Assembly (NCBI GenBank): GCA_951813545.1
Contig: OX638352.1
Location: 4,666,835 to 4,730,834 of the forward strand
Direction: 5' to 3'
From: an uncultured Poribacteria bacterium
Lineage (GTDB): Bacteria > Poribacteria > WGA-4E > WGA-3G
Length of the DNA stretch: 64,000 nt
The notes beneath the pieces were generated by a model. That model saw nothing but the letters and a program-made list of their open reading frames with translations, was not told the DNA's origin and ran no database searches. Shown here piece by piece: positions 4,394 through 56,744 of this stretch (positions within the stretch are counted from its first letter, which is position 1; each line of letters starts with the position of its first letter). The translations under genes were made by a program, and so were the position numbers.

Positions 4394-5269
4394 TTATCTC
4401 CGTCTTGCTTTGATGTGTCCCCATGTAACGCTCAAGTGGTTCGCGGAGGGGCTAACATCAAGTCCTGTGGCATTCATGTTGTTCTGAACTTCTGCTGCAC
4501 TCAGGACGCGGTCATAGACGCGGAATTCGTCGAGATATCCCTGAATCGTATCGCAATCGCATCCATCTGAACGGTCTCCAATACCGAGAAGAAGCCCACC
4601 TTTCGGAATTTTACCGCCCTTCATGGCGTACCTTTTCTCCTGTTTTCCGTTCACATAATAGTGAACCGTTTCACCGTCGTAGGTGCCGGCAAGGTGCAGC
4701 CACTCTTCAATAGGGATGTCCTCCAGGACATTGTCTTGCGCTGCCACTGTCGATTTGCCACCAGCTCTGATGAAGAAGCCGTGTTGGTTGTCATCATCAT
4801 CGTAATAGAGACTGGCAACTGCACTGTTTGTTGGCATATCGTCGAGTGAGATAATCCGATTCCAACTGTCATCCAGGGCGTTGATATAGACCCAGCATTC
4901 CAAGGTAATCTCATCCCAATCGCGATCAATTGTAGGCGGTTTTGAATCTTCAACAAGGAACCGATCAACACTGCCATCGAAAAGAATGCACTCGCCGACT
5001 TTGCAATCCGAGGCGGGTGCGAGTTCTGGGTCACCGTGGACAGCAGCAACGAGTCCTGTTAGTACATCTGCTGCCTCTGTTTTAATCTTTACCGTATCTT
5101 TGTTAAAAGACCAGTAAGCCACTAAACCATCTTCAACCGCACCGACAAGGGCATCGGCAGGCTGCGCGTTCCATACAAGAAGCGCGAGAAGGAGAAAAGT
5201 TATTGTGAAGCATTGTGAATTTTTCACAAAATGTCTATCCTGAAAACGAGCACCGCTTTTTAGATACAT
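4394..5269 (-). CDS. Secreted LamG/concanavalin-like domain protein with C-terminal WG-x-[IL]-K tag
   Basis: Exported protein of 291 residues. A long n-region, a hydrophobic stretch (ITFLLLALLVW, about 23-33) and a likely cleavage after ADA form the signal peptide. A LamG-type jelly roll follows (GLVAYWSFN, ITLECWVYI, EEWLHLAGTYDGETVHYYVNG, GYLDEFRVYDRVLSAAEV), a fold usually binding carbohydrate or matrix. The C-terminus SANHLSVTWGHIK plus basic residues is shared with two unrelated secreted proteins in this window (22927-23926 and 56016-56744). The start at 5269 has AAGGAG. Ligand unknown. LamG assignment is strong; a sorting role for the tail is inference. Confidence 0.85.
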   Translation of the reverse strand: MYLKSGARFQDRHFVKNSQCFTITFLLLALLVWNAQPADALVGAVEDGLVAYWSFNKDTVKIKTEAADVLTGLVAAVHGDPELAPASDCKVGECILFDGSVDRFLVEDSKPPTIDRDWDEITLECWVYINALDDSWNRIISLDDMPTNSAVASLYYDDDDNQHGFFIRAGGKSTVAAQDNVLEDIPIEEWLHLAGTYDGETVHYYVNGKQEKRYAMKGGKIPKGGLLLGIGDRSDGCDCDTIQGYLDEFRVYDRVLSAAEVQNNMNATGLDVSPSANHLSVTWGHIKARRR

Positions 5270-5395
5270 GATGCGCTCCTTCCACCTATTAAAGTGGTAT
5301 TAGATAGCCGAGGTATGGGTGCCTCGACCCATAGTTTCGGTTCATTCAAGCACTATGTACGAATGCTTCGTGTTCCACTGACAGAAATAGATTGT

Positions 5396-6790
5396 TTAGA
5401 ACATGTCACGCATCGCACGTTCTCGCCGATCGGCGATTTGACGTTCGCGTTCCTCGTCGGTCATTTGACCGGGTTGTACAGCGGTAATGGGACGGTATTC
5501 GGCGACCTCGCTTTTCCGCTTGAATACCCTGAAAAAGTCGAAACGGGTTAAGGTTGGTGGAATGTTCCCTGGACACAGGGAATGTAGTCCAACATGTACT
5601 GAGTTCCCCATGCCGACATTCGTTTGTCCACAGCTTTTCCACTGAATGCCGTCATCGCTGGCGAAAGATGAGAATTGGTTTCCTCTGCGTTCCATACGTA
5701 AGAAGAGTTCTCGCACATTTCTAAGCCCACTGCTGCGCCCACGCAAATTAAAGGAGCGTCCAACATGGCGTTCAAATCGGACATCGCCTCTAAAGGCATG
5801 CGGTCCTGAGGTTTTCTCCAAACGGAGGAACCTGTTTGGATTCTTCCATACTATTATGCCGCCGTGTTCTTTGAGTTGTGGTGAGATTCGCATGCGGGTT
5901 TCGATAGCGAAATCACCTACGACTTCCATGATAAGACGTGGTGCACTCATATCACCGCTTCTGCCATCTGGCCCGTGCCAAAGATCTTGTCCGGGTTCAG
6001 TTCGCATTTCCAGATAGCCTTGGCGTTCTGACCATGCCCCGCCACCTTTCGGATCCTCCCATCGCCATTCTGGACGCATATTGTTTCCAATGAACTCATC
6101 TTCAAATACCATCTCTGTGAATTCGCCAGAGGATGCCCATCCTTCAATCTTCACGGCGGAGATAGAATCCCCGAAGTTTTGCGGGAGTAAATGGAGGTTC
6201 GGTAACTCCTTTTTATATTCCGAGGGTTCCATCCGGATCGGTAGGGGTGCGCCTTCAAAGTCAGGGTGTTCATAGAAGACGACTTCCGCGCCATCTCGTG
6301 GGAAATCGGGACCTTTAAAGATACGAATTGAGGAAATCCGGTCTTCAAACCAAGTCCCGCCTTGTGCATCCCGTAAGTTGGCAATATCCCGCAGGATAGT
6401 GATTTTTCTACCGCGAAATTCGACGTGCTCATAGCAATCCACAATCAGCGGAATAGTCCCCCACTCGGGTCCAACGACTTCCAGTGTGGAGCCAAAGTTA
6501 ATCGAAGAGATCCTGTCGGCGAAATTGTATGAGGTATCGTGCAAATTCGGGTAAAATCCGGGACCGAGTGCCAATTTTTTACCGCGATAGTTAACGTGCT
6601 GATAAAAGATGGCTTTATAGTTCGGATTTGACGAGAAGTTTGGACCCTTATAGATACGAACAGAAGAGATATTGTCTTGAAATCCAATGGTGCGCGTATG
6701 CTGAACAGGTTCAACAACATATCCCATTCTGCCTCGGAAGTTTGTATGTTGGAACACCTCAACAATAAGGCGCGGTATGACGATTGGCAT
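5396..6790 (-). CDS. Beta/gamma-crystallin repeats plus DUF1349/concanavalin-like domain
   Basis: Protein of 464 residues with no clear signal peptide. The N-terminal half holds four Greek-key-like units marked by VFQHTNFRG, FYQHVNYRG, CYEHVEFRG and FYEHPDFEG, each followed by D-[NRS]-ISS or similar (DNISSVRIYKG, DRISSINFG, DRISSIRIFKG, DSISAVKIEG), the calcium-binding signature of beta/gamma-crystallins. The second half (from about residue 230, EFIGNNMRPEWRW to HVGLHSL) resembles the DUF1349/beta-xylosidase C-terminal lectin-like fold. The C-terminal tail is rich in Arg/Glu (DEERERQIADRRERAMRDMF). Likely Ca2+-stabilised carbohydrate binding. Start 6790 has AAGGAG. How it is exported, if at all, is unclear. 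Confidence 0.8.
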   Translation of the reverse strand: MPIVIPRLIVEVFQHTNFRGRMGYVVEPVQHTRTIGFQDNISSVRIYKGPNFSSNPNYKAIFYQHVNYRGKKLALGPGFYPNLHDTSYNFADRISSINFGSTLEVVGPEWGTIPLIVDCYEHVEFRGRKITILRDIANLRDAQGGTWFEDRISSIRIFKGPDFPRDGAEVVFYEHPDFEGAPLPIRMEPSEYKKELPNLHLLPQNFGDSISAVKIEGWASSGEFTEMVFEDEFIGNNMRPEWRWEDPKGGGAWSERQGYLEMRTEPGQDLWHGPDGRSGDMSAPRLIMEVVGDFAIETRMRISPQLKEHGGIIVWKNPNRFLRLEKTSGPHAFRGDVRFERHVGRSFNLRGRSSGLRNVRELFLRMERRGNQFSSFASDDGIQWKSCGQTNVGMGNSVHVGLHSLCPGNIPPTLTRFDFFRVFKRKSEVAEYRPITAVQPGQMTDEERERQIADRRERAMRDMF

Positions 6791-6804
6791 TTTTTATCTC
6801 CTTT

Positions 6805-6896
6805 TTTGATGGCTATCAGCAGTCAGCCATCAGCCATCAGTAAAGAGGTTTCTGGTGCATGAAGTTCTCTCTTATCTTAACTGATAGCCATTCTCA
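6805..6896. repeat. CAGTTATC/CAGCCATC-type inverted repeat
   Basis: GGCTATCAGCAGTCAGCCATCAGCCATCAG...CTTAACTGATAGCC forms an imperfect hairpin (GGCTATCAG versus CTGATAGCC). A related element of the same style occurs at 62243-62341. Confidence 0.6.
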
Positions 6897-7009
6897 AGTT
6901 TTGTTTACGCCGACTCTGTATGAAGTCGTGATTTAGAGAGCATTTCTACGTATCGTTTATATTTTCGATCAATGTTGGGCAGTTAGCTGTGCTATGTAGC
7001 TATTTGTCT

Positions 7010-8107
7010 TTATGTGTTCCTGATGGTTGCTTCGTAGATTTGAGCATACCCGCTTCGATCTGATGTGAACACAATATACCGTCCGTCTGGACTGAAAGAC
7101 GGATGTGGATGTGTATGCTGAGGCGCGTAAACGTGAATCGGACCCGCAGCATACGGAAAGGGTCCGTTCCAATGTTCACCGATAGATGAAGCGTTAGGAT
7201 AACAGAGTGTTTTCGGTTCGCCAACGCCGTCACGCGGGTCGAAAGTTTGAATACCAATATCTGGGAAGTTGGTATCTGCGACCATACGTGTTCCAGCAGG
7301 ATTGCTAATGGCGTGCCACGCGTTGAACGTTGTCACCTGTCGAACTACACCTGTATCGGCATTGACACATCTCACGCCTCGGGGCCAGTCAACGAACGCG
7401 AGTTCGCGCGTCCCCGGAATCCATGTTTCATGTGTAATCCACTCATTCTTTTCGACGTTTTGCGCGTAAAGGCGACGGTTCCGACTTCCGTCGCGATGAA
7501 TGACCCATACTCGGTCGGTGAGGGGACCTGCGTAGTAGAGTAGGTCAGAGTCATCAGGGCAGAATTGAAGGTGTCCGATGCTGTCCCTCTGTAAGATAAT
7601 GTCATGCTTACCGGTATTTGTATCTATAATAGCGAGTGATGACTCCTTGCCAATGTTGAATCTGACTGCCCACCACCGGTCATCATGGCTGATGGCTGTT
7701 GTTCCCATCGCGGCAGCAACCATGCCTTTTTCTTTCATCGCTGTTGCGGCGAAGTTAACAAGTTCTCGTTCTTCCAGTGTGTCTAAATCGAGTCGCCATC
7801 CGCTTGTACCAGCGGTGAAGAAGACCGCTTTTCCATCTCGTGAGGGATGCACAGACCACTCTCCGATGTCAGGTCTGTCTGTTAGTTGGCGAAGTTCACC
7901 CGTGGCGCGTTCTTCTGCGAATATCTGTGGCGTGCCGGTTCGGTACGAGATAAAAATCAGCCGCTGCATCGCGTCATCGTACGCTGGTATGATGAAAAAA
8001 GGGTGGTGATGCAGAGCGGACGCAGTCGTGACCTGTCGGATTTGCGTGCCAGTGCGTTGATCGTAAAAGGTCCGAGATTCGGAACCGTAAACCGTGCCTT
8101 TCGCCAT
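7010..8107 (-). CDS. Oligogalacturonate-lyase-like beta-propeller
   Basis: A 365-residue seven-bladed propeller resembling the oligogalacturonate lyase family (Pectate_lyase22), which cleaves unsaturated pectin oligomers in the cytoplasm using Mn2+. Seen: TQIRQVTTASALHHHPFF at the start, several LxFxxxxxGxxQI propeller blades, EHWNGPF, and near the C-terminus PQHTHPHPSFSPDGRYIVFTSD. The spacing Q-x-x-H-x-H matches the known metal-binding Gln/His trio. No signal peptide is visible, consistent with a cytoplasmic enzyme. The start at 8107 is preceded by AAGGA at 11 nt inside a leader repeat. A TolB-like propeller without lyase activity is the alternative. Confidence 0.75.
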   Translation of the reverse strand: MAKGTVYGSESRTFYDQRTGTQIRQVTTASALHHHPFFIIPAYDDAMQRLIFISYRTGTPQIFAEERATGELRQLTDRPDIGEWSVHPSRDGKAVFFTAGTSGWRLDLDTLEERELVNFAATAMKEKGMVAAAMGTTAISHDDRWWAVRFNIGKESSLAIIDTNTGKHDIILQRDSIGHLQFCPDDSDLLYYAGPLTDRVWVIHRDGSRNRRLYAQNVEKNEWITHETWIPGTRELAFVDWPRGVRCVNADTGVVRQVTTFNAWHAISNPAGTRMVADTNFPDIGIQTFDPRDGVGEPKTLCYPNASSIGEHWNGPFPYAAGPIHVYAPQHTHPHPSFSPDGRYIVFTSDRSGYAQIYEATIRNT

Positions 8108-8215
8108 TCTTTTAATTTTCCTTGCGGTTCGATGAGGCGTGATTAGGAAATTGACATGCCTTTCCGTAGCGTTGAAGAAACACCCAAGCGAAACCCTTCC
8201 ATTTCATTTCAGACT
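8108..8215 (-). promoter_or_regulatory. Leader repeat upstream of the lyase-like gene
   Basis: On the minus strand the last bases before the ATG read CCGCAAGGAAAATTAAAAGA, placing AAGGA 11 nt from the start. The rest (GGTTCGATGAGGCG, TTTCCGTAG, CCATTTCATTTCAGACTAC) matches the layout of the 2343-2729 and 36961-37050 repeats. It also contains a GAAACACCCAAGCGAAAC block found at 30247, 35951 and 46541 (inverted). Confidence 0.6.
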
Positions 8216-8350
8216 ACATTTTGTTTCTATTTTAATTTGGACACTTGATAACACAGAGTGTCCTTAAGACATGCTAATAATTATAGTGCAGAATCGCCAC
8301 ATTTAAGGGGCGGCGGGGATGTTGCCCCGCCGAAACAGTGTTTAAACTTC

Positions 8351-9349
8351 TTATTCTTCAAAGGCAGCATCAAATGCGACAGCAGAGGGTTCAAAATCAT
8401 AGCCCTTGACGGCAGCACAAGATTCACGGGCACCGTGTTCTCGATCCATCCCGCTGTCTTCCCACTCAATGGAAAGCGGACCGTCGTATTCCATATTGTT
8501 CAAGGCTCGGATAATCTCTTCAAAATTGATACTGCCGCGACCGATGGATCGGAAATCCCAGTTTCTTTGAGAATCGCCGAAGTTCAGGTGTCCGCCGAAC
8601 ACACCGGATAACCTCGGTGTATCTGCCCACCAGACATCTTTCATGTGGACGTGATAAATTCGGTCGCTTAACCGTTCAAGGAATGCAACGTAGTCAACCC
8701 CTTGGTAACCGAGATGGCTTGGGTCGTAGTTGAATCCGAATGCTTCTCTGCCATTGACTGCTTCAATCGCGCGTTCTGCAGTGACGATGTCGAAAGCGAT
8801 TTCAGTCGGGTGGACTTCGAGTCCGAACTTGACACCAACCTCATCAAAGACATCGAAAATCGGGTTCCAACGGTTCGCAAAATCTTCAAAACCGGCATCA
8901 ATTTGTCCCGGATCGTTGGGTGGGAAAGAGTAGAGGAGATGCCATATAGAGCTGCCAGTAAATCCGTTAACAACATTCACGCCGAGTTTTGCGGCAGCGC
9001 GCGCCGTGTTCTTCATCTCTTCAGCGGCGCGTTCTTGAACACCTGCCGGATCGCCATCGCCCCAAATAGCCTCTGACAAAATGCCTTGATGCCGACTGTC
9101 GATATTATCACAGACGGCTTGTCCAACAAGGTGGTTGCTGATTGACCAGACCTTTAGTCCGTATTTCGCGAGGAGGTCATGCCTGCCTTGGCAGTAGTTA
9201 TCGTCTGCGAGTGCTTTATCCACTTCAAAGTGGTCACCCCAGCAAGCGAGTTCTAAGCCGTCATAGCCCCATCCGCTCGCTTTTTCTGCTAATTCTTCCA
9301 ACGTTAAATCTGCCCATTGGCCTGTAAAGAGTGTTACAGGTCTTGCCAT
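8351..9349 (-). CDS. Sugar phosphate isomerase/epimerase (xylose-isomerase-like TIM barrel)
   Basis: AP-endonuclease-2/xylose-isomerase superfamily protein of 332 residues, cytoplasmic. Seen: [48 protein letters not shown] (metal-ligand Glu and His), [24 protein letters not shown] and [17 protein letters not shown], the expected metal-binding set. Start 9349 has AAGGAG. It sits between the lyase-like and Gfo/Idh genes, supporting a sugar or uronate pathway. Such enzymes often work with Gfo/Idh dehydrogenases by 3-keto-sugar chemistry; the exact reaction here is inference. Confidence 0.85.
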
Positions 9350-9542
9350 AATAGTGTTGCTCCTTCATATTTTTATTTTTCCGTGCGGTTCGTTTAGGAG
9401 GGTTTAGTAAGAACGCTCCTAATATCCCAACTTAGGCGTAATTTCTGGTTTCCAAGTGCTGTTTTAGCGAGTCAGAAAGAGAGTCCAGTTTTACAATCCT
9501 AAATTGTGCTGTGAAAGCACAATGCCTGGAGAAAAATTGAGA

Positions 9543-10331
9543 TTAACTGCGTGCTTTCAAGCGTTCGAGCTCTTCTCGGAGTTCTGTAAGTTCTGCCTCG
9601 GCTCTCTGGCGTGCAGCGGCTTCTTGGTTAGCGCGTGAGGCTTCTTGGTCAGCGCGTGTTTCAGCCATGTCAGCGCGTATCGTTTGCAGCTCAGCACGTG
9701 TGGCTTCTCGATCAGCGCGTGCGGTTGCTGACTCCGCGGGTGTTTGCAACCAAGCACCCGCAACCGGATCATAAATACCTAAACCGACTTCGCCAACAGA
9801 GAAATCTAAACCGAGAGCAGTGGAGTGCAAACGTCGATTTGAAATTTCCAAGATTGGTGTATACACACCATCAACCAAGGTAAAACCCATTATAGGCGAT
9901 GATAGATATAGACCCTCGGCATCATATAGAAAATAGTCTCGGATTCCGAGTGAAGCGTAGAGCTTCATCTTGCTTCCTAAGTCGTTGCGATAGGTGCCTT
10001 TGCTCGAAAACTCCATCACGAAATCAGGTACCTTTCCCTCTTCCCAGACGAGATACGTCCGTCGATTTTTCTTACCCATTCCGAAAGTGACCAGCACGTC
10101 TGGTGCAACCGATTTACGTGGATCACCCTCTACGTAATACATGAGTATATCACCGGAGACGTAGACTTCCGGTCTCTCTGCAAAATGGGTGTCAAGGACA
10201 TCCAAAGTTCGTGTAAGAATACGTCTGTGAAGGTCACTAACTGCCATAGGTTGTCCATCCGAGTCAGGGTAAAGTTCCTCCGTTTCCGTGGGCGCGTAAC
10301 GGATGTGACGTTGGTCTCGGTAGGTTCCCAT
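9543..10331 (-). CDS. Uma2-family (DUF820) PD-(D/E)XK nuclease-like protein with repeat coiled-coil tail
   Basis: 262 residues from the ATG at 10331, chosen because AAGGAGG lies just upstream and a longer start at 10412 would overlap the upstream gene. The core (SVAPDVLVTFG, VPDFVMEFSSKGT, LGIRDYFLYDAE) fits the Uma2/DUF820 putative nuclease fold. The last 70 or so residues are charged heptads of the form ADxxxxR, encoded by near-repeats of about 21 nt (the TCAGCGCGTG word recurs on the plus strand), predicting a coiled coil. Biological role of Uma2 proteins is unknown. It lies 52 bp after the Gfo/Idh gene and may be co-transcribed. Confidence 0.85.
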   Translation of the reverse strand: MGTYRDQRHIRYAPTETEELYPDSDGQPMAVSDLHRRILTRTLDVLDTHFAERPEVYVSGDILMYYVEGDPRKSVAPDVLVTFGMGKKNRRTYLVWEEGKVPDFVMEFSSKGTYRNDLGSKMKLYASLGIRDYFLYDAEGLYLSSPIMGFTLVDGVYTPILEISNRRLHSTALGLDFSVGEVGLGIYDPVAGAWLQTPAESATARADREATRAELQTIRADMAETRADQEASRANQEAAARQRAEAELTELREELERLKARS

Positions 10332-10383
10332 TAGTCCCCTCCTTTTCCGTTTTAATAGATCCTCCACATAAAACAGAATTTGA

Positions 10384-11556
10384 TTACGTAGGTGGTGTAT
10401 AACTCGCGTCAATCCATGCCCGCTGTTTGCCGCTTTCTACAGCAGCGTTGATAAAATACACACCGCGTGCACCGTCTTGGACGGTCGGGAAATCCGTGTC
10501 AAATTCAGCTGGGGCTTCGCCTGTGATTTTCGCCGATATTGTGCGTGCAGCGTTTACATAGATATTCGCGAATGCCTCAATAAATGCTTCGGGATGTCCA
10601 AAGGGTATCCGTGAGTTGTGTTGGACAACCTCCGACAAATAGTCGTTTCCACGTTTGTAAACCTGCTCGGGACCGTCTGGGAAACGGACAGAGAGATAGT
10701 TCGGGTTCTCTTGATGCCATTCCAGTGAAGCCTCTGTACCATAAACACGAATGCGTAGATTGTTCTCTTCACCGACTGAGATCTGTGAGGCATACAGAAC
10801 GCCGCGGACACCGTTTTCATAGTGTACCAGTAGATTTCCGTCATCTTCCAACAAACGTCCCTCTACAAAAGTGGTCATGTCTGCACAGAGTTCTTCGATT
10901 TCCAGTCCTGTGATGTAGTGTGCTAAGTTCTCAGCGTGCGAACCGATGTCTCCGATACATGAAGATGCGCCTGCTTGCTTAGGGTCTGTGCGCCAGACGG
11001 CTTGCTTCGCGCCTTCGTCTTCTAAGAATGTGGCGAGCCAGCCTTGTGGGTATTCTACGACGATTTTGCGGAGCGTTCCGAGTTTCCCCTCTTTTACGAG
11101 TTCGCGCGCCTGCTTCACCATCGGATAGCCTGTATAGTTGTGTGTCAGTGCAAAGACAGCGTCGTGCTTTTTGACGAGGTCGCAGAGTGCTTCAGCATCG
11201 GCAATCGTCGTGGTCATCGGCTTGTCACAGACGACATGGAATCCAGCTTCAAGAAAGGTTTTGGCGACATCGAAATGGACATGGTTTGGTGTTACGATTG
11301 AGACGAAATCGATACGTTCGCCTTCGGGCAATTGACTCTCTTTTTCTGCCATTTCGTGGTAAGAGCCGTAAACTCGGTTTGCGTTGAGGAAGAGTTCAGC
11401 ACCTTGTTGGCGGGATTTTTCGGGTGATGATGAGAATGCGCCAGCGATGAGGTCAATTTCCCCGTCAAGTGCCGCGGCTTTTCGATGAACAGCACCGATG
11501 AACGCATCCGGTCCGCCGCCTACCATGCCGTAACGTATTTTCCTGTTTAGTGGCAT
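10384..11556 (-). CDS. Gfo/Idh/MocA family oxidoreductase
   Basis: NAD(P)-dependent dehydrogenase of 390 residues. Seen: YGMVGGGPDAFIGAVHRKAA (dinucleotide loop), VSIVTPNHVHFD, the family signature CDKPMTTT (DKP variant of EKP), and SSCIGDIGSHAENLAHYITG carrying the conserved D-x-x-x-H. Sequence and length fit the inositol or sugar dehydrogenase-like subgroup, distinct from the shorter homologue at 2756-3763. Start 11556 has AAGGAG. Substrate not determinable. Confidence 0.88.
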   Translation of the reverse strand: MPLNRKIRYGMVGGGPDAFIGAVHRKAAALDGEIDLIAGAFSSSPEKSRQQGAELFLNANRVYGSYHEMAEKESQLPEGERIDFVSIVTPNHVHFDVAKTFLEAGFHVVCDKPMTTTIADAEALCDLVKKHDAVFALTHNYTGYPMVKQARELVKEGKLGTLRKIVVEYPQGWLATFLEDEGAKQAVWRTDPKQAGASSCIGDIGSHAENLAHYITGLEIEELCADMTTFVEGRLLEDDGNLLVHYENGVRGVLYASQISVGEENNLRIRVYGTEASLEWHQENPNYLSVRFPDGPEQVYKRGNDYLSEVVQHNSRIPFGHPEAFIEAFANIYVNAARTISAKITGEAPAEFDTDFPTVQDGARGVYFINAAVESGKQRAWIDASYTPPT

Positions 11557-11770
11557 CTTGCGTATTTTCTCCTTTGCTTTGTAATTTGGGCTTGCAAGTT
11601 TCGCCCTACAATAGATATTTTAATTCCAATATACATTATCTCATATTTGGGTACTTTTTTCAAGATTTTTTGTTTTAGCGGGGTGTGTAAAGTTTTTGGT
11701 AAGAGGTGGAGACTGTGAAGCGTTGGAAGAATGGAAGGAAACGATAGGTGTGCCAAGATTTTGCCAATTA
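11557..11770. other. Intergenic stretch before the accessory island
   Basis: AT-rich non-coding DNA upstream of the Gfo/Idh start. I see no gene or clear promoter. It ends where the first GCGGATT-type repeat begins, marking the left edge of the accessory island. Confidence 0.5.
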
Positions 11771-11845
11771 TCTGAATCACAGATTATTGCGGATTACACG
11801 GATGACGCGGATTGAAAATCTGTAACATCAAGCAATCCGCTAACG
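11771..11845 (+). repeat. GCGGATT-family repeat copy 1 (long form)
   Basis: Begins TCTGAATCACAGATTA, continues ACACGGATGACGCGGATTG, and ends with CTGTAACATCA...ATCCGCTAA. It shares its full length with copy 5 (14966-15043). It lies downstream of the DUF5615 gene. Confidence 0.85.
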
Positions 11846-11927
11846 GGAGAACTGAATGACTCTGTCTGTGTTCAGGGTTTGTTTTCTAAATGGCGATTTC
11901 TCTGTTGGTTGTTGGCGTTTAATCCGA

Positions 11928-12486: not shown

Positions 12487-12604
12487 GGTATCCACCTCTT
12501 CCTATAAATAGTTGAGAAAAGTATACCACAACTCGCGTCGGTTATCAACGGTTTTAGTGGCAAGTTTCTAATCGGCAGGGTTAGAGTTTGGCGTTTTCTT
12601 ATTA

Positions 12605-12864: not shown

Positions 12865-12878
12865 AAAGAAAAGCAGCG

Positions 12879-22902: not shown

Positions 22903-22926
22903 ATAGCAGACATGGAGGAGATAAAA

Positions 22927-23926
22927 ATGAAACGGCCCCTGACTTATATCATGTTCGGAACGACCCTGTTTTTGTTGCACTTTATGTTTTCGGTAAACCT
23001 CTATGTCTACGCATCCGATGCTCCGTATATTGCTTTCAGTTCCAACCGAGATGGAGATTATGATATCTACATCATGGATATAAAAGGAAAGAATCTCCAG
23101 AACCTAACAAACAGCCCAACGCATGAGTTTAAACCAGCGTTTTCGCCGGACGGACATCAGATGGCTTATGTTTCCTCTCGGCATGATGGCAATCCCGAAA
23201 TCTATGTGATGAATCTCAATACAAAGGTATCCTACCGCTTGACGAACCATCCCGGGCATGACGATAATCCTGCATGGTCCCCAGACGGACGATGGATTGC
23301 GTTTGACTCCTATAGAGAAGTGACGTATGACATCTATAAAATCGAACCGGATGGCGAGAATCTACAACGCTTGACGCACGGGGTGGTGGATAGAAACTAC
23401 AACGCGACTTGGTCCCCTGATAGTCAATCAATCGCTTTTGCTTCTTTCAGAGCGGCTCCTGGCATCTACATCATGGATGCCGATGGCGGAAATCAAAGAC
23501 GACTCGAAAACCAACCGCTGTCGGGACACATGCCCTCATGGTCGCCAGATGGAAAACAGATCGCTTTTAGTGATATGATTTTAGGCGGACATCGGGATCC
23601 CCTTTTCGGAGGAAGTCGGGATATCTACACGCTAAACGTTGACGGGAGTAATCTCAGGCGGCGGACACACCATCCAGCTATGGACATATTTCCGGATTGG
23701 AGTCCTGATGGACGATCGATTGTTTACTATTCCAGGTGGAATCAGAAAACTGACATTTATCTTATAGAAGGTGGGCTTGGACGACATGGCGGTCGATCGA
23801 TTGACGCGCCATCCAGCGGATGATAAGTATCCAGCGTGGGTGCCTGCGGGTTCTCTCTCTATTTCTCCAACCGCAGAGACACAAACGACCTTGTGGGGCA
23901 AACTAAAGCAGTCTGGGCAGGACTAA
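22927..23926 (+). pseudogene. Secreted TolB-like WD40 propeller, frameshifted, with C-terminal WG-K tag
   Basis: Start ATG 22927, preceded by GGAGGAG (an ATG at 22912 lies inside that site). A signal peptide (IMFGTTLFLLHFMFSVNLYVYA) precedes repeated propeller blades (FSPDGHQMAYVSSRHDGNPEIYVMN, WSPDGRWIAFDS, WSPDGKQIAFSD, WSPDGRSIVYYS). The reading frame ends early at 23823, but one extra G around 23766-23771 explains it. In the +1 frame the protein resumes (GLDDMAVDRLTRHPADDKYPAW) and ends ETQTTLWGKLKQSGQD at 23926, carrying the tail shared with two other secreted proteins. Mutation and assembly error are both possible. Confidence 0.75.
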
Positions 23927-48947: not shown

Positions 48948-49297
48948 CGGTTTATCTATTCAGAGTCTCCTTTTGATGTCGGTCTATTTAGGATTTTAGC
49001 GTTGGTTCGTTTTTTTGTCAATATCAAAAAGAGACGGAACGGGTCTTTTTGTGTGCGCAATATTTTTAAAGTAAACCAAATTAAAGCGATTTGCGTTTTT
49101 AAGGCAAATTGCGTTATTATATATAAGCGCAAACAGATAAAATCAGAATAGCATTTATAGTAAAATTCGTAATTATTTGGGCATTGTGGATAGGCGAGGA
49201 TACAATCCTCGCCAGCGGTGGTGAGAGTTTTTTCAGTGAACAACTGTCCACATATCTTCAGAGTTTACTATAAATCTACAAGAGGAGTTACATTTCA
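48948..49297. other. AT-rich intergenic region with MITE C
   Basis: AT-rich DNA between divergent genes. It contains AAAGCGATTTGCGTTTTTAAGGCAAATTGCG and MITE copy C. The regulatory region of both genes should lie here, but I could not place convincing promoters. Confidence 0.5.
49156..49272. repeat. MITE copy C
   Basis: TATAGTAAA and TTTACTATA ends, central GGCGAGGATACAATCCTCGCC hairpin and AGCGGTGGTGAG. More diverged from copies A and B outside the hairpin (TTCGTAATTATTTGGGCATTG). Confidence 0.85.
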
Positions 49298-50422
49298 GTG
49301 TGCTTTTTTACACGTAAAACCTTTACACTACTTATATGGATCGCTGTCTTTTTCCCAGTTACGGCACTTGCGGGACCCGGGCGAACAGGGGCACAAATTT
49401 TGAATCTTGGCGGCGGTGCACGAGCGAGATCCCTCGGCGACGCATTTTCTGCGATGTCTGGTGATGTGACGACATCGCTCTGGAACCCAAGCGGGCTTGC
49501 CGATATGCCCGATAGTAAATTCCGATCTGGCAAAAAAGCGACACAAATCTCAACGTTTTATACAGATTACAGTGCCCCTTTTGGGGAAGCCGGAGAAGGG
49601 TTATATTATACTTTCATCTCTGGTGCAATGCCCCTCGGTGAGATTGGAACTATCGGGGCAACACTTCAGATGCAAGGGCAAGGCACAATAGCGGTGACAA
49701 CTGATTCTCCCGATGTCCTTCGTGAGGAAAGTCTCGGGACCAACTTCGCATTCACATTTTCTTATGCGGACCGAATTACAGAGTCTCTATCAGCGGGGAT
49801 CAGCGGTAAAATGATTCGGATGGTTCTCGGACGCGAGAACGGAAGTTCTTATGCCGTTGATTTGGGAATGCAGTATCTCTTTCCTTTTGATCTTTTTCCC
49901 ACAACACTCGGTGTTGCCGTCCAGAACATTGGACCGGGTATCTCTTTCATTGATGAAAACCAAGCAGATCCATTACCACGGTTTTTGCGGCTTGGCACTT
50001 CAGTAAGTCTCTATCATGATCGATATAACCACGTGCGTTTGGTTAGCGGTCTCACCGCCTATATTGATAAATTGGCAGAAGATGAAGATGAATTAGCCGT
50101 TGATTTAGAACGACTTAACCTTGAAAGAGAGGAAAAACTGACGCGCGAGCAACTACTCTCTGACCGCGGAGTGGGTGTCCGCGCATTTGAATGGCGGCAT
50201 CTGCAAAAGAATGTCGGCTTAGAGTATTGGCTCGGCGATCTACTTGCGCTCCGAGTGGGCTATAAAGTTGAACCCGGTATCCATCTCGCAAATTGGACGG
50301 ATTATTTTACCGGTGGTATCGGTGTGAAGATATACCTATTCAATCTGGATTTGAGTTACGGTCCCAGTTTTGGTCCAAACAATCAGCGGCTCATTGAAGT
50401 AACAGGAATAGTCGCCTTTTAA
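49298..50422 (+). CDS. PorV/PorQ-family outer-membrane protein
   Basis: 374 residues from a GTG start. Signal peptide (LLIWIAVFFPVTALA), then GRTGAQILNLGGGARARSLGDAFSAMSGDVTTSLWNPSGLADM, the hallmark opening of PorV/PorQ (UPF0164) beta-barrel proteins, and many amphipathic strands; the last residue is Phe (TGIVAF). In Bacteroidota, PorV shuttles type 9 secretion substrates to the attachment complex; in other phyla it is a generic barrel. No T9SS core genes are in the window. Followed 21 bp later by the DUF5683 gene. Confidence 0.85.
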   Translation: MCFFTRKTFTLLIWIAVFFPVTALAGPGRTGAQILNLGGGARARSLGDAFSAMSGDVTTSLWNPSGLADMPDSKFRSGKKATQISTFYTDYSAPFGEAGEGLYYTFISGAMPLGEIGTIGATLQMQGQGTIAVTTDSPDVLREESLGTNFAFTFSYADRITESLSAGISGKMIRMVLGRENGSSYAVDLGMQYLFPFDLFPTTLGVAVQNIGPGISFIDENQADPLPRFLRLGTSVSLYHDRYNHVRLVSGLTAYIDKLAEDEDELAVDLERLNLEREEKLTREQLLSDRGVGVRAFEWRHLQKNVGLEYWLGDLLALRVGYKVEPGIHLANWTDYFTGGIGVKIYLFNLDLSYGPSFGPNNQRLIEVTGIVAF

Positions 50423-50443
50423 CTAAGAAGGAAATAACGGAAA

Positions 50444-51271
50444 GTGAAATTTAACGCCCAAATTTTAATACTTGTGCTGCTGTTGTGTTTATCGTCTGGT
50501 GTATGCCTCGCTGCTGAGGGTCTTAATGCAGAACCGTTTACAGCCTTCTATCTGGATTCTACTCTTGGAAATCGTTCGCTCGCGAATCAATCTGCTGTCA
50601 CTATGCAGGCGACCCAAAACCTCCAACCCCAGAAGTCTCCAAATGAAGCGTTCCTTTATTCGCTCGTCATTCCGGGTATGGGGCAACTCTATACGGGTGC
50701 CAAGCGTGGCTATTTCTACATGGCAGCAGAGGGAGTTTTGCTCGCGGGCTATTTTATTTTGTGGAACAATGCTTCAAACATTCGAGACGACTATCGAGAT
50801 GTTGTCAGGCAACATGTTGTTTTTATCGGTCCTGGTTCGTTTGAGGATTGGGATCCTGTTGAGGATTTTGAGCACGCCACGCAGTATGAAACATGGAACC
50901 ATGTCTATGATTCAGAAGAGACCCGAACACGGACTGGCAAGTGGTACTGGGGCGATCTTGACCCGACACTAAAGAACGAGAAACACAACGAAATTGAGAC
51001 TGCAGGTATTGTTTCAAAATACCGATCGGAAGCTTTTGATTTACGGCAAAAAGCGAACAATACCTTTGAACGCGCGAAGTTCTTTTTAGGTATGGCAATT
51101 TTGAACCATGTTGTTAGTGCTGTGGAAGCGAGGATTACAACTAAACGTTTCAATGCCCGCTTGCAGAATACACCTATGCAGATGAGAGCCAATGCTTTTG
51201 AAATAGATGTCCAAACTGACATGTCGGCAGGTGCGCTAACAAGTGCGCTTGTGATACGAAAAAGGTTTTAA
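50444..51271 (+). CDS. DUF5683-like membrane protein
   Basis: 275 residues from a GTG start with a signal peptide (ILILVLLLCLSSGVCLA). A conserved segment EAFLYSLVIPGMGQLYTGAKRGYFYMAAEGVLLAGYFILWN is the DUF5683 core, two membrane helices separated by a GxGQxYxGxxxxG turn, also known in other envelope proteins. The rest is charged, possibly extra-cytoplasmic. Function is unknown. Close coupling to the PorV-like gene suggests a shared role in the cell envelope. Confidence 0.8.
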   Translation: MKFNAQILILVLLLCLSSGVCLAAEGLNAEPFTAFYLDSTLGNRSLANQSAVTMQATQNLQPQKSPNEAFLYSLVIPGMGQLYTGAKRGYFYMAAEGVLLAGYFILWNNASNIRDDYRDVVRQHVVFIGPGSFEDWDPVEDFEHATQYETWNHVYDSEETRTRTGKWYWGDLDPTLKNEKHNEIETAGIVSKYRSEAFDLRQKANNTFERAKFFLGMAILNHVVSAVEARITTKRFNARLQNTPMQMRANAFEIDVQTDMSAGALTSALVIRKRF

Positions 51272-51284
51272 GAAGGAGGATTCT

Positions 51285-52223
51285 ATGCCATTAGACTTAT
51301 CACTACTTTTGGAAGCACTCAATTCGGTTACTGCGATTCCTATCATCCCTTTTAAGGGCGACAAGATTGATTACACCGGACACGCCAAAAACGTTGACTA
51401 TTTGATGCGTAACAACTATCTCGATGAAGGGCGGCAGCGGGTCATTGCTATTGCCGGAACAAGTTTGATTCATCACATCAGTGAAACCGAGCAGCTTCGC
51501 CTTATCGACAAAACTGGACAACAGATGGGAGATGATGGTATCCTCATGTCCGGTATTGTCCCCAATCCAATTCGTCAGGCTGGGCAGCTTATTGAGGCAC
51601 AAGCCGAACTTCGTAGACCGCCAGATGTGTATTTGCTCATGCCCTTGACTGGTGTCTCCAGTCCGGAGGGTATTTATCAAGCGTACATGAAATTCGGAGA
51701 AGACTATGGCACTGCCTGCGGTGCGAGGTTTCTCTACTATTTCCGTCAGAAACGCGACATGGCAGCGGTCATCCGTCTCTTAAACGATTCTCCCCATTTC
51801 GTCGGTGTGAAAATAGGGACAGGTGAGAAAGATGTGACACCGCTCGTGGAAGGGATCGGGGACAATGGAATTGTGATGTGGGGCATCGGGGACAGATGTA
51901 CCCGTCCTGCGCAGTTGGGGACGAAAGGGCATACTTCCGGTATTGCGGTTGCCTTTGCCCGCGCTTCCGATGAGATTAACAATGCGCAACGCAAGGGCGA
52001 TTACGAGACCTCAGCACGTATTGAAGCCGACATCGCACCGCTTGAGGAGATCCGTTTCATGAACGAGCGTGTTTATAATTATTCTGCTGTCATTGAGGCG
52101 ATGATCTTAAGCGGTTTTGATGACATCGCTGCTGGGACTGGAGGTCCGTTTAACCCGCGCGTTCCATCAGAAATTCAAGAGCAGCTCCGCGAGGTGGCAC
52201 AAGAATTAAAGCGGTATCATTAG
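51285..52223 (+). CDS. DapA-family aldolase
   Basis: 312-residue TIM barrel of the dihydrodipicolinate synthase/N-acetylneuraminate lyase family. Seen: TAIPIIPFKGDKIDYTGHAKNVDYLM, IAGTSLIHHISETEQLRLIDKTGQ (the usual GTTGE loop altered to GTSLI), YLLMPLTGVSSPEG, FLYYFRQ (Tyr) and FVGVKIGTGE (Schiff-base Lys). The altered glycine-rich loop suggests a substrate other than pyruvate/aspartate semialdehyde. Start has AAGGAGG, 13 bp after the preceding gene. Cytoplasmic; likely another sugar-acid catabolic enzyme. Confidence 0.85.
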   Translation: MPLDLSLLLEALNSVTAIPIIPFKGDKIDYTGHAKNVDYLMRNNYLDEGRQRVIAIAGTSLIHHISETEQLRLIDKTGQQMGDDGILMSGIVPNPIRQAGQLIEAQAELRRPPDVYLLMPLTGVSSPEGIYQAYMKFGEDYGTACGARFLYYFRQKRDMAAVIRLLNDSPHFVGVKIGTGEKDVTPLVEGIGDNGIVMWGIGDRCTRPAQLGTKGHTSGIAVAFARASDEINNAQRKGDYETSARIEADIAPLEEIRFMNERVYNYSAVIEAMILSGFDDIAAGTGGPFNPRVPSEIQEQLREVAQELKRYH

Positions 52224-52360
52224 AAGTCAGGGTTAGGTTGATTTCTGTTTTACATTGTTTCAAATTCCTGTGGAGTGAGTCTACTGTTATATCCATCTAT
52301 AGAACAAGAGTCGGAGATCGCGGTTCCTTCCTATAGGAAGACTGAATACCTCTGGTTGAT

Positions 52361-52389
52361 TTGACAACGGCATTGCTTCATGATACAAT
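52361..52389 (+). promoter_or_regulatory. Sigma-70-type promoter left of the TnpB element
   Basis: TTGACA (52361-52366), 17-bp spacer, TACAAT (52384-52389). About 15 bp before the right end of the TnpB element. Once the element is removed, it would sit directly upstream of rqcH. Confidence 0.7.
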
Positions 52390-52403
52390 AAATACTATTG
52401 GTC

Positions 52404-52560
52404 AAGGCACCCACTGCCTAAAGGCAGGGGCTTGTGCTTCGTCGCAGTTAGCATTTCCGAGGAAACGTCTTACATCTGCTCCACAGAGGGACCACAAGCA
52501 GCCCTCAAAATGTTTATCGCAGCGTTGACATCTCTATCGTGGTGAGAACCACATTCAGGA
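52404..52560 (-). ncRNA. Candidate omega/reRNA of the TnpB element
   Basis: TnpB proteins use a guide RNA transcribed from the 3' part of tnpB through the right end (known mechanism). By analogy it would run to about 52404, with the 52409-52430 hairpin near its 3' end and the guide taken from flanking DNA. The extent is a guess from family layout. Confidence 0.35.
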
Positions 52561-53591
52561 CATGTCCACTGCCTATCAGAAAGAGAAAGATTTTCGTTGT
52601 GGTGTCCACAGTCCGAACACGGCTTACTCGTAGCCGTCCACTGCCCCACTTGAAAGAACTCACGCTTATGTTTTTGACACTTATACTTCAATATCTCAAC
52701 AAACTGGTAGAAGGCGAGATCAGATACTTTGCGTCCCCACAAGCGTTTCATGCCGTCAAGGTTCAGCGTCTCGGTAGCGATGGTATCAAAACGCCTGCAC
52801 AAATCGGTGGCAAGTTTCCAATGCCAATCTTTGCGTTGGTTGGCAACTTTGCGATAGAAACGTGCGAGTTCACGGACAGCCCTCCACCAGTTATTAGAAC
52901 CTTTGACCTTTCGTCTGACGGCTTTATTGAGGGTTCGGAGTTGATTCAAGGATGCTTTCAAGGGTTGTGGGTGTTGTATCTTTTCACCCGTGCTAAGTGT
53001 CAAATATGCGTCTTTCATACCGAAGTCTGCCCCAACGCTTTCACCTGTTGTTGGCAGCGGTTTGAAATCTGTATAGGTTGTTGTGATATAAAGCCAATAA
53101 TCTCCACAACTATCACGCTTAATCGTGATACGTTTAAGCGTGCCGTGCCATTGGCGGTGTTTATGAAACGTATATGGCACTTTATCAAATCGCCATTTAC
53201 CTTTATCCCACTTGCGAAATGTGAGTGTGATACGGTTGTTAGTGAGTTTATACCCAGTTTGTTTAAGAGTGATAGACTTAAACTTATGGCGAGGTTTGAT
53301 ATGGGGTTTACCCCCACGTTTATTAAAGAACCTTTGATACGCATTATCAATGCGTTCCAACTCTGCTTGGATCGCTTGACTCGGCAATGCGTTCCAATGC
53401 GGGTGCGTCGTCTGTTTCAAATCCGTCAGGTGAGCAGACATAGCATTGTAGTTCGCATACGGCAGCCCGTCTTTATACCGCTGACGCTGCCACTTATGGA
53501 AATACGCATGCACTTGCCACATATCATCAAGCAAGTTACCCAAACGGATTGTATTAGATTGCTTACCTATTTTATATTTATACGTTTTCAT
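52470..53591 (-). CDS. tnpB: RNA-guided nuclease TnpB
   Basis: 373 residues. RuvC-like catalytic set: D189 (VGADFGMKD), E274 (ATETLNLDG), D354 (DRDVNAAINIL). Zinc finger C325-x-x-C328 (CSDC) and C344-x-x-C347 (CPEC). The N-terminal RNA/DNA-binding wedge has the expected LTDLKQ and FFNKRGGKPHIKPRHK. All active-site residues are intact, so nuclease function is plausible. The frame on the opposite strand (52539-53630) is a shadow. Likely expressed from its own left-end region. Confidence 0.95.
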   Translation of the reverse strand: MKTYKYKIGKQSNTIRLGNLLDDMWQVHAYFHKWQRQRYKDGLPYANYNAMSAHLTDLKQTTHPHWNALPSQAIQAELERIDNAYQRFFNKRGGKPHIKPRHKFKSITLKQTGYKLTNNRITLTFRKWDKGKWRFDKVPYTFHKHRQWHGTLKRITIKRDSCGDYWLYITTTYTDFKPLPTTGESVGADFGMKDAYLTLSTGEKIQHPQPLKASLNQLRTLNKAVRRKVKGSNNWWRAVRELARFYRKVANQRKDWHWKLATDLCRRFDTIATETLNLDGMKRLWGRKVSDLAFYQFVEILKYKCQKHKREFFQVGQWTATSKPCSDCGHHNENLSLSDRQWTCPECGSHHDRDVNAAINILRAACGPSVEQM

Positions 53592-53830
53592 GGACTATCA
53601 AGTACCAAGTCTTTAACCCCTATACAGTAGGTAGGCTGGCACGTCACCAAGAGGTAACGCTGTATATGCCAGCCAACTTGATACTTTAATTATACTACAT
53701 TTTTAGGCAAAAGTCAAATGTTTTTCTTGACACAAACCTAATGCCCGTCTACATCCCGCAAGCTAAAGCATGGGGGCTTGACGGGAAGATTGATAACGTA
53801 TGTTTGTTTTAATGAAGAGAGATCTCCACA

Positions 53831-55540
53831 ATGTCGTATGATAGTTTAGCACTTCGTCTGGTTGTTGAAGAGTTGCGTGAAGTCCTTTTAGGCAGTACAA
53901 TCCGACACATTGAACAGGCGAACCCCCATACCTTTTCGTTTAAAGTCGGTCGCGCTGCCGAGACGCAGTGGCTTACTTTATCCGCACATTCATTGCATGC
54001 CCGCGCACATCTCACCCAGAAACCTGCGCCGGGGCAAAAGCAATCTTATCTGGCGGATTTCCTCACAACACATCTCAGGCGTGGTACTATTACTGCAATT
54101 GAGCAACTCGGTTGGGATCGGATACTCAAGATAACGGTTCAACCCACTTCCGATGAACCGATACAACCACCCCCCAAAGCGATCATTGCTGAATTTATGG
54201 GTAAGCATAGCAACATTATTCTCATTGATGCCAGCGATGATAGGATTTTGGAAAGTCTCAAGCGCATTGATGAGACAATGAGCCGACACCGAGAGATTTT
54301 ACCCGGTGAAACTTACGTTTTACCGCCACAGCAAGATAAATTAAATCCCTTGACCTTAGACGAATCGGCGTTTATCCAACTATTTGGTGAGCGAGTAGAG
54401 GTGAGTTGGCGACAACTTTTTAACAAAATTGACGGTCTCAGTCCTACTTTAGCGAAAGAGATTATCGCGCGGGCAGCGCAAACAGATCTTTGGAGTGCCT
54501 ATCAGCAAGTAATCGCCTGTTTCGATCCGGGAAACGCTTCACCGCAGCTGCTCATGGATGAAGATGTGCCTCTTGCGGTATCACCTATGCCGTTGCATCA
54601 ATTGCCGGACGCAACCTCTCAAACGTTTGACACGATGAGTGACGCTCTCACTGCCTATTACGATGCAATCACTCTGAATGAGAGTATTGCTTCGGAACGC
54701 CGCTCCCTCACACAGGCGTTGACAAAACAGGAGAACCTGCTCCAACGAAAGGCGGAAGGGCTCCATACTGACCTTGAACGGGCAGAAAAAGCGGATGATT
54801 ACCGTATTCAAGGCGAACTGATTCTCGCTAATTTACATGCTATCACCCGAGGACAGAAACAGGTTGAGCTACAAAACTACTATAGTTCTGAGCTGGAGAT
54901 GTTGTCCATCCCGCTCAATCCGGAGCGAAGCCCTTCCGAAAATGCTCAGGCTTATTTCAAAAGATATACAAAAGCGAAACGGGGGCGTTCGCGTATCCAG
55001 CAGCTCATTTCAGATGTAGAGGCGGATCAGGAAACATTGCGTCTTTATGCGTCCAAGTTAGAAGCCGCCGACACTTTAGAAGCACTACAGCGTCTTCGCA
55101 CGGAGTTTGTCGCGAACGGCTATCTTAAGGCATCGCATCGCGGTAAACAGAAACAGGAGGTCGGCGAAGGGGCTTTCCGAAGATATACCTCCAGCAATGG
55201 ATTCCAGATATATGTTGGACGCAACAGTCAGTCCAATGACCTACTCTTACGTCAGATCGCTAAGCCGCGCGATATGTGGCTTCATGCGAAGCAGATTCAC
55301 GGCTCACATGTTATCATCCGAAACCCGGAGCATCGTCAGGATATTCCGATGCCGACGTTATTACAAGCCGCTCAACTCGCTGCTTACTACAGCAAAGCAC
55401 ATCATGCCAGCAATGTGCCTGTTGATTATACGTGGGCGCGGTATGTTGTGAAGCGGAAAGGCAACGTCGCGGGTTATGTGCATTACACGCGTGAAAAGAC
55501 ACTATATGTTGAGCCTGCTGTGCCAACATCGAAAGGATAG
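53831..55540 (+). CDS. rqcH: RqcH-like NFACT protein (ribosome quality control)
   Basis: 569 residues. N-terminal NFACT-N domain (SLALRLVVEELREVLLGSTIRHIEQANPHTFSFKV, FLTTHLRRGTITAIEQLGWDRIL, AEFMGKHSNIILID, LSPTLAKEII), a long coiled-coil middle (about 290-400), then the NFACT-R domain (FRRYTSSNGFQIYVGRNSQSNDLLLRQIAKPRDMWLHAKQIHGSHVIIR, AAYYSKAHHASNVPVDYTWARYVVKRKG). Adds alanine tails to nascent chains on stalled 50S subunits. The TnpB element stands between it and the only obvious upstream promoter. Confidence 0.93.
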   Translation: MSYDSLALRLVVEELREVLLGSTIRHIEQANPHTFSFKVGRAAETQWLTLSAHSLHARAHLTQKPAPGQKQSYLADFLTTHLRRGTITAIEQLGWDRILKITVQPTSDEPIQPPPKAIIAEFMGKHSNIILIDASDDRILESLKRIDETMSRHREILPGETYVLPPQQDKLNPLTLDESAFIQLFGERVEVSWRQLFNKIDGLSPTLAKEIIARAAQTDLWSAYQQVIACFDPGNASPQLLMDEDVPLAVSPMPLHQLPDATSQTFDTMSDALTAYYDAITLNESIASERRSLTQALTKQENLLQRKAEGLHTDLERAEKADDYRIQGELILANLHAITRGQKQVELQNYYSSELEMLSIPLNPERSPSENAQAYFKRYTKAKRGRSRIQQLISDVEADQETLRLYASKLEAADTLEALQRLRTEFVANGYLKASHRGKQKQEVGEGAFRRYTSSNGFQIYVGRNSQSNDLLLRQIAKPRDMWLHAKQIHGSHVIIRNPEHRQDIPMPTLLQAAQLAAYYSKAHHASNVPVDYTWARYVVKRKGNVAGYVHYTREKTLYVEPAVPTSKG

Positions 55541-55569
55541 AAAGTTTTGTTTTTTGTCGGAGTTATGCT

Positions 55570-55896
55570 ATGATGGAATATAAAGGTTATATGGGGGCTA
55601 TCGACTTCGATCCAGAAATCTACCTTTTCCATGGAACAGTCATTAATACCAGTGACGTGATCACGTTCTATGGAGCATCTGTAACTGAACTTCGCGAAGA
55701 GATGGAAAAATCCGTTGAGGGTTACCTTGAATTCTGCCGAGAACAAGGGATAACACCAGAAAAACCTTTCTCTGGTAAATTCACGATTCAGATGAGCCCC
55801 GAGATGCATTGCAAACTTGCTTTGAATGCTGAGCGGCTCCATTTAGATTTCGATGCCTATCTCCAAAAAATTTTGGAGGATGTCACTTCGGCATAA
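55570..55896 (+). CDS. HicB-family antitoxin-like protein (no HicA partner)
   Basis: 108 residues. MEYKGYMGAIDFDPEIYLFHGTVINTSDVITFYGASVTELREEMEKSVEGYLEFCREQGITPEKPFSGKF is the HicB RNase-H-like fold, followed by a ribbon-helix-helix-like tail (IQMSPEMHCKLALNAERLHLDFDAYLQKILEDV). HicB normally neutralises the HicA RNase encoded next to it; neither neighbour is HicA. So it may be a solitary regulator. Starts 29 bp after rqcH. Confidence 0.85.
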   Translation: MMEYKGYMGAIDFDPEIYLFHGTVINTSDVITFYGASVTELREEMEKSVEGYLEFCREQGITPEKPFSGKFTIQMSPEMHCKLALNAERLHLDFDAYLQKILEDVTSA

Positions 55897-55901
55897 CAGA
55901 T

Positions 55902-55935
55902 GTCGCCCGTACGGGGCTGTTGCGATTTTTTTATG
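55902..55935 (+). terminator. Probable terminator after hicB
   Basis: GATGTCGCCCGTACGGGGCTGT hairpin followed by TTGCGATTTTTTTA. Same GCCCC-TA-GGGGC element as at 41440 and 41492. Confidence 0.55.
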
Positions 55936-56015
55936 GTTTCTGGTTAATCTAATTTGTGCGCTTAAGTTGAACCTACATTATATTGTCTTGCAGATTAACA
56001 TAGGAGGAATTTGTT

Positions 56016-56744
56016 ATGAAACTGGTTAAGGTGTTCGTACTGATTGCTCTGTTTTGTGGCATCAGTCTTTTTTCAGTAGGAATTGCTACAGCCTTAGACG
56101 AATGGGTACATATTGATTTGGAACCCGTTGTCAACACAAAATTGGTTGACCACGAATGGTGGACACTGAACGCTGGGGACAGTACGCTTTCACGTTTGCC
56201 TATTGGTGAGGTCGGCGAATTTGAGGGACCAGATGGAAAGGTAGAGTTTCAAATTATAGACGGTGCCATTGTCATCTTCGGCACCAATGCCGCGAAATGG
56301 CCCAAGGCGGTTAACGATATTGTCATTGGGGGTAAGGCAAAATTCGTCTATTTTTTTCATGCGACCGGGTGGGAACAGAATGGTGTTCCAAGTTACAAAT
56401 TTGTGATGCACTATCGGAGTGGCAAGAAAGAGGAACTTGAGATGATCTCGGGTTTTAACTCCGATGATTGGTGTCACGATGATGCTGCACTCGAAGACGA
56501 TAATTCTGTCTGGGGATGGGTTAAGAAGGAAGGCGGTCCTTGTGGACACGCAGGGTTAATTACCACAAAGTGGGAGAACCCACGACCCGATGATTGGATT
56601 GAGACAATAGATGCCGTCTCTTTGGAATTAGGTTCGGTGCCTGTCATTCCAGCGATTACCTTAGGTGAAGCAACACTCGCAGTTGACCCATCGGCAAAAT
56701 TGGCTGTTACATGGGGTAGCCTGAAAAGTCCACGTGGACTCTAA
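56016..56744 (+). CDS. Secreted protein of unknown function with C-terminal WG-x-[IL]-K tag
   Basis: 242 residues. Signal peptide (VFVLIALFCGISLFSVGIATA), then a beta-rich domain (WVHIDLEPVVNTKLVDHEWWTLNAGDSTLSRLP, VYFFHATGWEQNGVPSYKFVMHYRSGKKEELEM, ETIDAVSLELGSVPVIPAIT) reminiscent of carbohydrate-binding jelly rolls, though no named family is certain. The C-terminus SAKLAVTWGSLKSPRGL carries the tail shared with the LamG protein at 4394-5269 and the TolB-like protein at 22927-23926. Ends just before a strong terminator. Start has GGAGGAA. Confidence 0.8.
   Translation: MKLVKVFVLIALFCGISLFSVGIATALDEWVHIDLEPVVNTKLVDHEWWTLNAGDSTLSRLPIGEVGEFEGPDGKVEFQIIDGAIVIFGTNAAKWPKAVNDIVIGGKAKFVYFFHATGWEQNGVPSYKFVMHYRSGKKEELEMISGFNSDDWCHDDAALEDDNSVWGWVKKEGGPCGHAGLITTKWENPRPDDWIETIDAVSLELGSVPVIPAITLGEATLAVDPSAKLAVTWGSLKSPRGL

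Follow-up and report, generated by a model that had tools for sequence, protein, structure and literature searches.

Could a tail of some 15 residues, carried by exported proteins that are otherwise unrelated, be a sorting signal in its own right? This question is raised by a 64-kb stretch of DNA (hereafter the window) from an uncultured Poribacteria bacterium (GenBank assembly GCA_951813545.1, contig OX638352.1, positions 4,666,835 to 4,730,834 of the forward strand). A preliminary description of the window had noted that three exported proteins of different kinds share their last residues, and had taken this tail for a sorting or anchoring signal. It had also proposed searching the parent genome and the phylum for the tail, counting how often it is C-terminal and on exported proteins, and looking for a co-occurring transpeptidase or PorV paralogue; these searches were run, and their results are given below. 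The tail, or tag, is a soluble linear motif that reads V-x-P-x-x-K-L-x-T-T-W-[GA]-x-[LI]-K over about 15 residues and is followed by a short variable end. We regard it, with moderate confidence and on the sequence evidence presented here, as a genuine phylum-wide C-terminal sorting or anchoring tag and connect it with the outer-membrane arm of a type IX secretion system (T9SS).

Three tagged proteins in the window

A six-frame scan of the window with the expression [TLSA]W[GA].[ILVMF][KR] gave three matches in total, which are the tails of the three proteins described earlier; all lie near the C-terminus, with a stop codon 4, 5, and 5 residues later. The first belongs to a LamG exported protein on the minus strand (4394..5269; Laminin_G_3 at 8.6e-26) that ends SPSANHLSVTWGHIKARRR; its tag core, VSPSANHLSVTWGHIK, is located at 4409..4456 on the same strand and is followed by ARRR and the stop. 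Another is found on an exported protein of the plus strand (56016..56744; hereafter the 56016 protein), which is without a Pfam match at E<=0.01 and ends DPSAKLAVTWGSLKSPRGL, with the core VDPSAKLAVTWGSLK at 56682..56726 on the plus strand ahead of SPRGL and the stop. The remaining one belongs to a TolB/PD40-type propeller gene, also on the plus strand. Here, the ORF (open reading frame) with the signal peptide (22912..23823) stops short of the tag, and the tail SPTAETQTTLWGKLKQSGQD is read in the neighbouring frame (about 23861-23923), where the core ISPTAETQTTLWGKLK (23861..23908, plus strand) is followed by QSGQD and the stop. That this tail becomes visible only after a frameshift is corrected had been stated from the outset. 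Another reading frame of the same genome ends SPTTETQTTLWGRLKQSVQD, nearly identical to the tail of the broken gene, and the frame-break reading is therefore correct. In this gene (window 22912-23926) the break is located shortly upstream of the C-terminus. Several other tagged ORFs of the genome are also short (e.g., L011, L043, L053, and L081), by real decay or assembly errors.

Number and position of the tag in the parent genome

Throughout the 6.1 Mb parent genome, the core reads approximately L-A-V-[ED]-P-x-G-K-L-A-T-T-W-[GA]-x-[LI]-K, followed by a few residues. The DNA pattern for T-W-G-x-NTN-K was found at 90 genomic places, against 2 for the reversed control pattern, so that its occurrence is far above chance; a profile built from 80 tails gave at least 150 matches at E<=1 among 243 genomic candidates. 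The 90 places, which include two exact repeats, translate into 88 distinct contexts. A stop codon lies no more than 10 residues behind the Lys of the pattern in 84 of the 88, four of which sit in ORFs of 11-43 residues and are probably due to chance, while the other four contexts are internal, one of them preceding a T9SS domain. Note that the 80-row alignments (A1, A2) omit the short-ORF contexts L008, L021, L086, and one of L059 as well as the internal contexts L024, L027, L038, and L076, and retain L037 (44 residues).

The same position is seen in 40 regions with profile matches other than TWG (TWA, TWS, LWG, and similar variants), which were picked in list order and not at random. Among the fetched loci, 150 of 157 profile matches are no more than 12 residues away from the ORF end, and among 160 core contexts, 149 are within 10 residues of the end, one is at 11-30, and 10 are beyond 30. 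The loci behind the 160-context count, like those behind the ORF controls given below, were mostly chosen for holding the tag. Consequently, the unbiased evidence on position consists of the 88 TWG contexts and the window.

In the 149 C-terminal contexts, the successive conserved positions are V (85%), P (66%, with A in 21%), K (85%), L (80%), T (80%), and T (79%), and the W is followed by G (67%), A (24%), or S (8%), then any residue, then L (62%) or I (30%), and K; the search expression itself prescribed W and the last K and restricted the choice of residue on either side of W and ahead of the K. Behind the final Lys only 1-10 residues trail, most commonly 3, and therefore no membrane-spanning segment can come behind the tag.

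The tagged proteins

Do the tagged proteins leave the cytoplasm? Among the 138 tagged ORFs that are 150 residues or longer, a crude rule finds a signal-peptide-like start in 127, compared with 56 of 201 other ORFs of the same loci, a control set that contains some spurious ORFs, and 13 of 45 ORFs in the window. Judged by eye, about five of the 11 tagged ORFs without a call have no proper N-terminus, the rest have a hydrophobic start that was missed, and no clear cytoplasmic carrier was seen among the 11. The tag is not a general feature of export, since by the same rule only 2 of the 15 signal-peptide-like ORFs in the window carry it.

The claim that the tag sits on unrelated proteins also stands. 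With their last 30 residues removed, the 138 tagged proteins are sorted by single linkage at E<1e-4 into 20 clusters, of which the largest holds 93. Among 80 tagged proteins, the Pfam families include Laminin_G_3 (36), 3keto-disac_hyd (10), PD40 (6), F5_F8_type_C (3), CBM9_1 (2), LTD (1), and others, a tally of 25 of 35 families, and a tagged protein judged by eye to be beta-helix-like is present on another poribacterial contig (L151). The carriers appear to be Sec-exported proteins, mostly of carbohydrate-binding type. In an NCBIfam scan at E<=0.1, 80 tag-only proteins matched 19 families, none of which is a C-terminal tail model.

Conservation across the phylum

All 84 phylum genomes searched, which represent 21 genera, have more matches to the core pattern than to its control, with 4 to 119 per genome against 0 to 8; the weakest are G009 (4 vs. 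0) and G017 (19 vs. 8). A 34-column profile also gave matches in 84 of 84 genomes. However, the core pattern with its control is preferred, because the first columns of the profile track the ends of LamG domains and no more than 93 candidates were scored in each genome. For the two most distant genomes, 20 regions were picked, and all 27 contexts in them end 0-3 residues past the Lys.

Conservation can also be followed within a single family. Orthologues of the 56016 protein were found at 21 poribacterial loci, and the tail is kept in all of them, 20 with T-W and one reading A-W-A-S-L-K. In an alignment of 17 intact sequences (A3, which omits the broken or gapped loci L119, L120, L132, L145, and L146), the tail shows no variation at V, K, T, W, S, L, and K and almost none at G, while the last 3-6 residues, behind the final K, are variable. 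A constant core with a drifting end is what would be expected if the motif is under selection and its end is free.

The tag joined to a T9SS domain

A known C-terminal signal is present in the same genome, which has 34 matches to the T9SS type A C-terminal domain (CTD; TIGR04183, Por_Secre_tail). A composite pattern, W-[GA]-x-NTN-K followed by 12-30 bases and [YF]PNPF, was found at 64 places in 57 of the 84 genomes, covering 10 of the 21 genera, with no control matches. The spacing from the Lys to N[YF]PNPF is exactly 6 residues in 60 of the 64 composites and 5 or 7 in the others, and therefore the CTD begins about where tag-only proteins end. In the 22 listed loci that were inspected among the 64 places, the parts upstream of the composite differ (WD40-like, UnbV-like, and others, named by eye). 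Such a strict register suggests joint use or joint origin of tag and CTD.

Are the tag-only genes simply CTD genes that have been broken? For 145 tag genes, a motif search over as much as 450 bases of downstream sequence revealed no CTD remnant, its two matches being incidental, and hence they are not. Many CTD-only proteins of the genome (L088-L116) share another stretch before the CTD, roughly L-x-Q-L-L...P-x-x-T-x-L-L before NYPNPF, which is perhaps an alternative to the tag.

Distant homologues of T9SS proteins

The preliminary description had assigned the protein at 49298-50422 to the PorV family. At the family level this assignment stands: the gene (49298..50422, plus strand) encodes a PorV/PorQ-family outer membrane protein that matches NF033709 with 188 bits (cut-off 90). 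As a PorV equivalog it does not, with 105 bits against a cut-off of 250. Its relatives occur at 51 loci with up to 95% identity, all on poribacterial contigs, and the family is expanded in its own genome, with 17 matched stretches at about 15 loci, 8 of them above the cut-off and the window copy included.

Other T9SS components have candidates as well. An SprA-like homologue was found at E<=0.001 in 83 of the 84 phylum genomes. In the parent genome it is an SprA/Sov-like protein of 2228 residues (L277:5039-11725, about 2.181-2.188 Mb), whose profile match extends over five stretches and scores 154.5 bits, below the equivalog cut-off of 200. A tagged LamG gene (L277:3913-4701) is located just upstream of it on the same strand. 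Peptidase_C25 was above its cut-off in 83 of the 84 phylum genomes and in none of 14 control genomes. Three C25 proteins of the parent genome are PorU-like (L282:2406-8708, L283:3447-8603, and L284:1049-7450), with 390, 389, and 342 bits at a PorU cut-off of 420. They have CTD-like ends, for which TIGR04183 gives 20, 27, and 22.5 bits (cut-off 23) and the frame search is above the cut-off. The first of them (L282) is followed, after about 190 bases, by a PorV-family gene. These three paralogues might serve different signals.

The proposed search for a co-occurring transpeptidase or PorV paralogue thus returned three PorU-like proteins, one SprA-like protein, and about 15 PorV-family-like loci. 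The distant SprA, PorU, and PorV homologues suggest that a diverged T9SS outer-membrane arm may be present. When single cells of Poribacteria were studied in 2014, TIGR04183 domains were noted, but the structural genes of the Por system were reported as not found (PMC3909097).

Comparison with known C-terminal signals

The tag had been described as unlike the T9SS CTD, PEP-CTERM, or LPXTG signals, and the comparison bears this out. The T9SS type A domain is likewise a soluble C-terminal signal of Sec-exported cargo with many copies per genome, and in the composites it is found directly behind the tag. However, TIGR04183 spans 72 positions, while the tag has about 15 residues and usually ends the protein alone, and none of the 80 tag-only proteins matched TIGR04183 in the NCBIfam scan (E<=0.1). 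PEP-CTERM, GlyGly-CTERM, and LPXTG are also short conserved C-terminal motifs on unrelated exported proteins, but they require a membrane-spanning segment behind the motif, which the poribacterial tag lacks. Encapsulin cargo-loading peptides are likewise short C-terminal linear motifs, and the GSLK-like ending of the tag resembles them superficially, but their cargo is cytoplasmic. The MYXO-CTERM/myxosortase system offers a further parallel, namely a C-terminal sorting tag that is phylum-wide and carried by dozens of surface proteins per genome; in MYXO-CTERM, however, a Cys is invariant, and the signal includes a transmembrane helix as well as an Arg-rich end (PMC11980579). By contrast, the poribacterial tag has no conserved Cys or helix and just 1-10 residues past the core, and the transmembrane segment with a basic end that marks PEP-CTERM, sortase, and MYXO-CTERM substrates was seen in none of the 149 C-terminal contexts.

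Possible role of the tag

The sequence checks support the reading of the tag as a sorting or anchoring signal, with a putative function and partner. In Porphyromonas gingivalis, PorV shuttles cargo, and PorU cuts the signal and conjugates the new C-terminus to anionic lipopolysaccharide (A-LPS), as described in PMC7468200. In the reading preferred here, once Sec has exported a tagged protein, part of the T9SS outer-membrane arm would bind its tag and carry it to the cell surface or keep it there; the candidates are a shuttle of the PorV family and the three PorU-like transpeptidases. In proteins with both tag and CTD, the CTD may be cut off near the junction and the tag left at the mature C-terminus; if so, mature composites would end like tag-only proteins, and tag-only proteins would resemble T9SS cargo after removal of the CTD. 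More tentatively, and with a good deal of doubt, the tag could be a CTD-free sorting code of a diverged T9SS, the mature C-terminal address left on cargo once the CTD is gone and present on tag-only proteins from the beginning. It would be read by one of the three PorU-like transpeptidases or by a PorV paralogue, which would attach well over 100 lectin-like proteins per genome to the sponge-facing surface.

Several observations weigh against a tie to T9SS. The SprA-like, PorU-like, and window PorV-family proteins are all below their equivalog cut-offs, SprA is above its curated cut-off in just one of the 84 genomes, and the motor protein GldM (TIGR03517) is unmatched in the parent genome at E<=1, where a diverged or different motor is possible. 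PorV-family loci are not clustered with tag genes: 2 of 15 are within 3 kb, and 2.0 are expected at random. Both the tag and the tested T9SS parts occur almost throughout the phylum; therefore, co-occurrence cannot single out a partner for the tag. Only 2 of the 28 own-genome CTD tails examined (of 34 matches, 30 fetched) show the tag, or a TFG form of it, immediately ahead of the CTD. Finally, structure models of the 56016 and LamG proteins are poor (mean pLDDT 49 and 45, with the tag region below 50) and uninformative on the tag; a short strand around L-x-x-T-W in both is too weak for use, and a comparison of the tail with solved structures gave three insignificant matches, the best at E 0.11.

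Could the tag then act without T9SS? It may be an envelope or surface docking motif whose receptor is an S-layer-like protein, a glycan, peptidoglycan, or an outer membrane protein, the CTD composites being fusions in which each signal acts independently. This alternative is doubtful but deserves to be taken seriously, as the tag matches (at least 150) far outnumber the 34 CTD matches, few CTD proteins carry the tag, and tag genes are not gathered around the PorV-family loci; against it stands the 6-residue register kept across 10 genera. It is unlikely that the tag is a recognition motif for periplasmic quality control, a chaperone, or a protease instead of a sorting signal. Such a motif would indeed be short, soluble, and C-terminal on Sec-exported proteins of mostly beta-type Pfam families, but only part of the exported proteins carry the tag (2 of 15 in the window), and an internal tag before a CTD would leave no free C-terminal degron.

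Less probable still is that the tag is what remains of a degraded CTD, tag-only genes being CTD genes minus the CTD. The composite tag does sit exactly upstream of the CTD, but the downstream motif search disfavours this origin, and loss cannot explain why so many proteins have kept the tag. Very little probability attaches to a functionless tail that spread as LamG-type genes were duplicated and their domains shuffled; the 93 mutually linked proteins of the largest cluster would fit, whereas the 19 further clusters, the constant core with drifting trailing residues in orthologues, and the enrichment in 84 of 84 genomes disfavour it. A cargo-loading peptide of an encapsulin or microcompartment can practically be dismissed despite the likeness of the ...GSLK end and the report of microcompartment shell domains in Poribacteria (PMC3909097), for PF04454 was unmatched in the genome at E<=1 (a search that matched 4 of 14 control genomes; shell proteins were not searched for) and the cargo is not cytoplasmic, 127 of 138 tagged proteins having signal-peptide-like starts.

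Significance

In literature searches, mostly of openly accessible journals, no title or abstract opening about such a tag came up, and six forms of the motif searched as strings gave 0 papers; a C-terminal signal of this kind without a membrane helix is thus apparently undescribed so far. As a sorting or anchoring tag, it would be a signal on at least 150 exported proteins of one genome, enriched in every searched genome of a sponge-symbiont phylum. The composites physically tie the tag to the T9SS CTD in a phylum for which the 2014 study saw that domain but reported no secretion genes to go with it (PMC3909097), and the distant SprA, PorU, and PorV homologues make the question of how Poribacteria secrete CTD proteins testable. 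For cells that are uncultured, the tag would predict which proteins act at the interface with the host.

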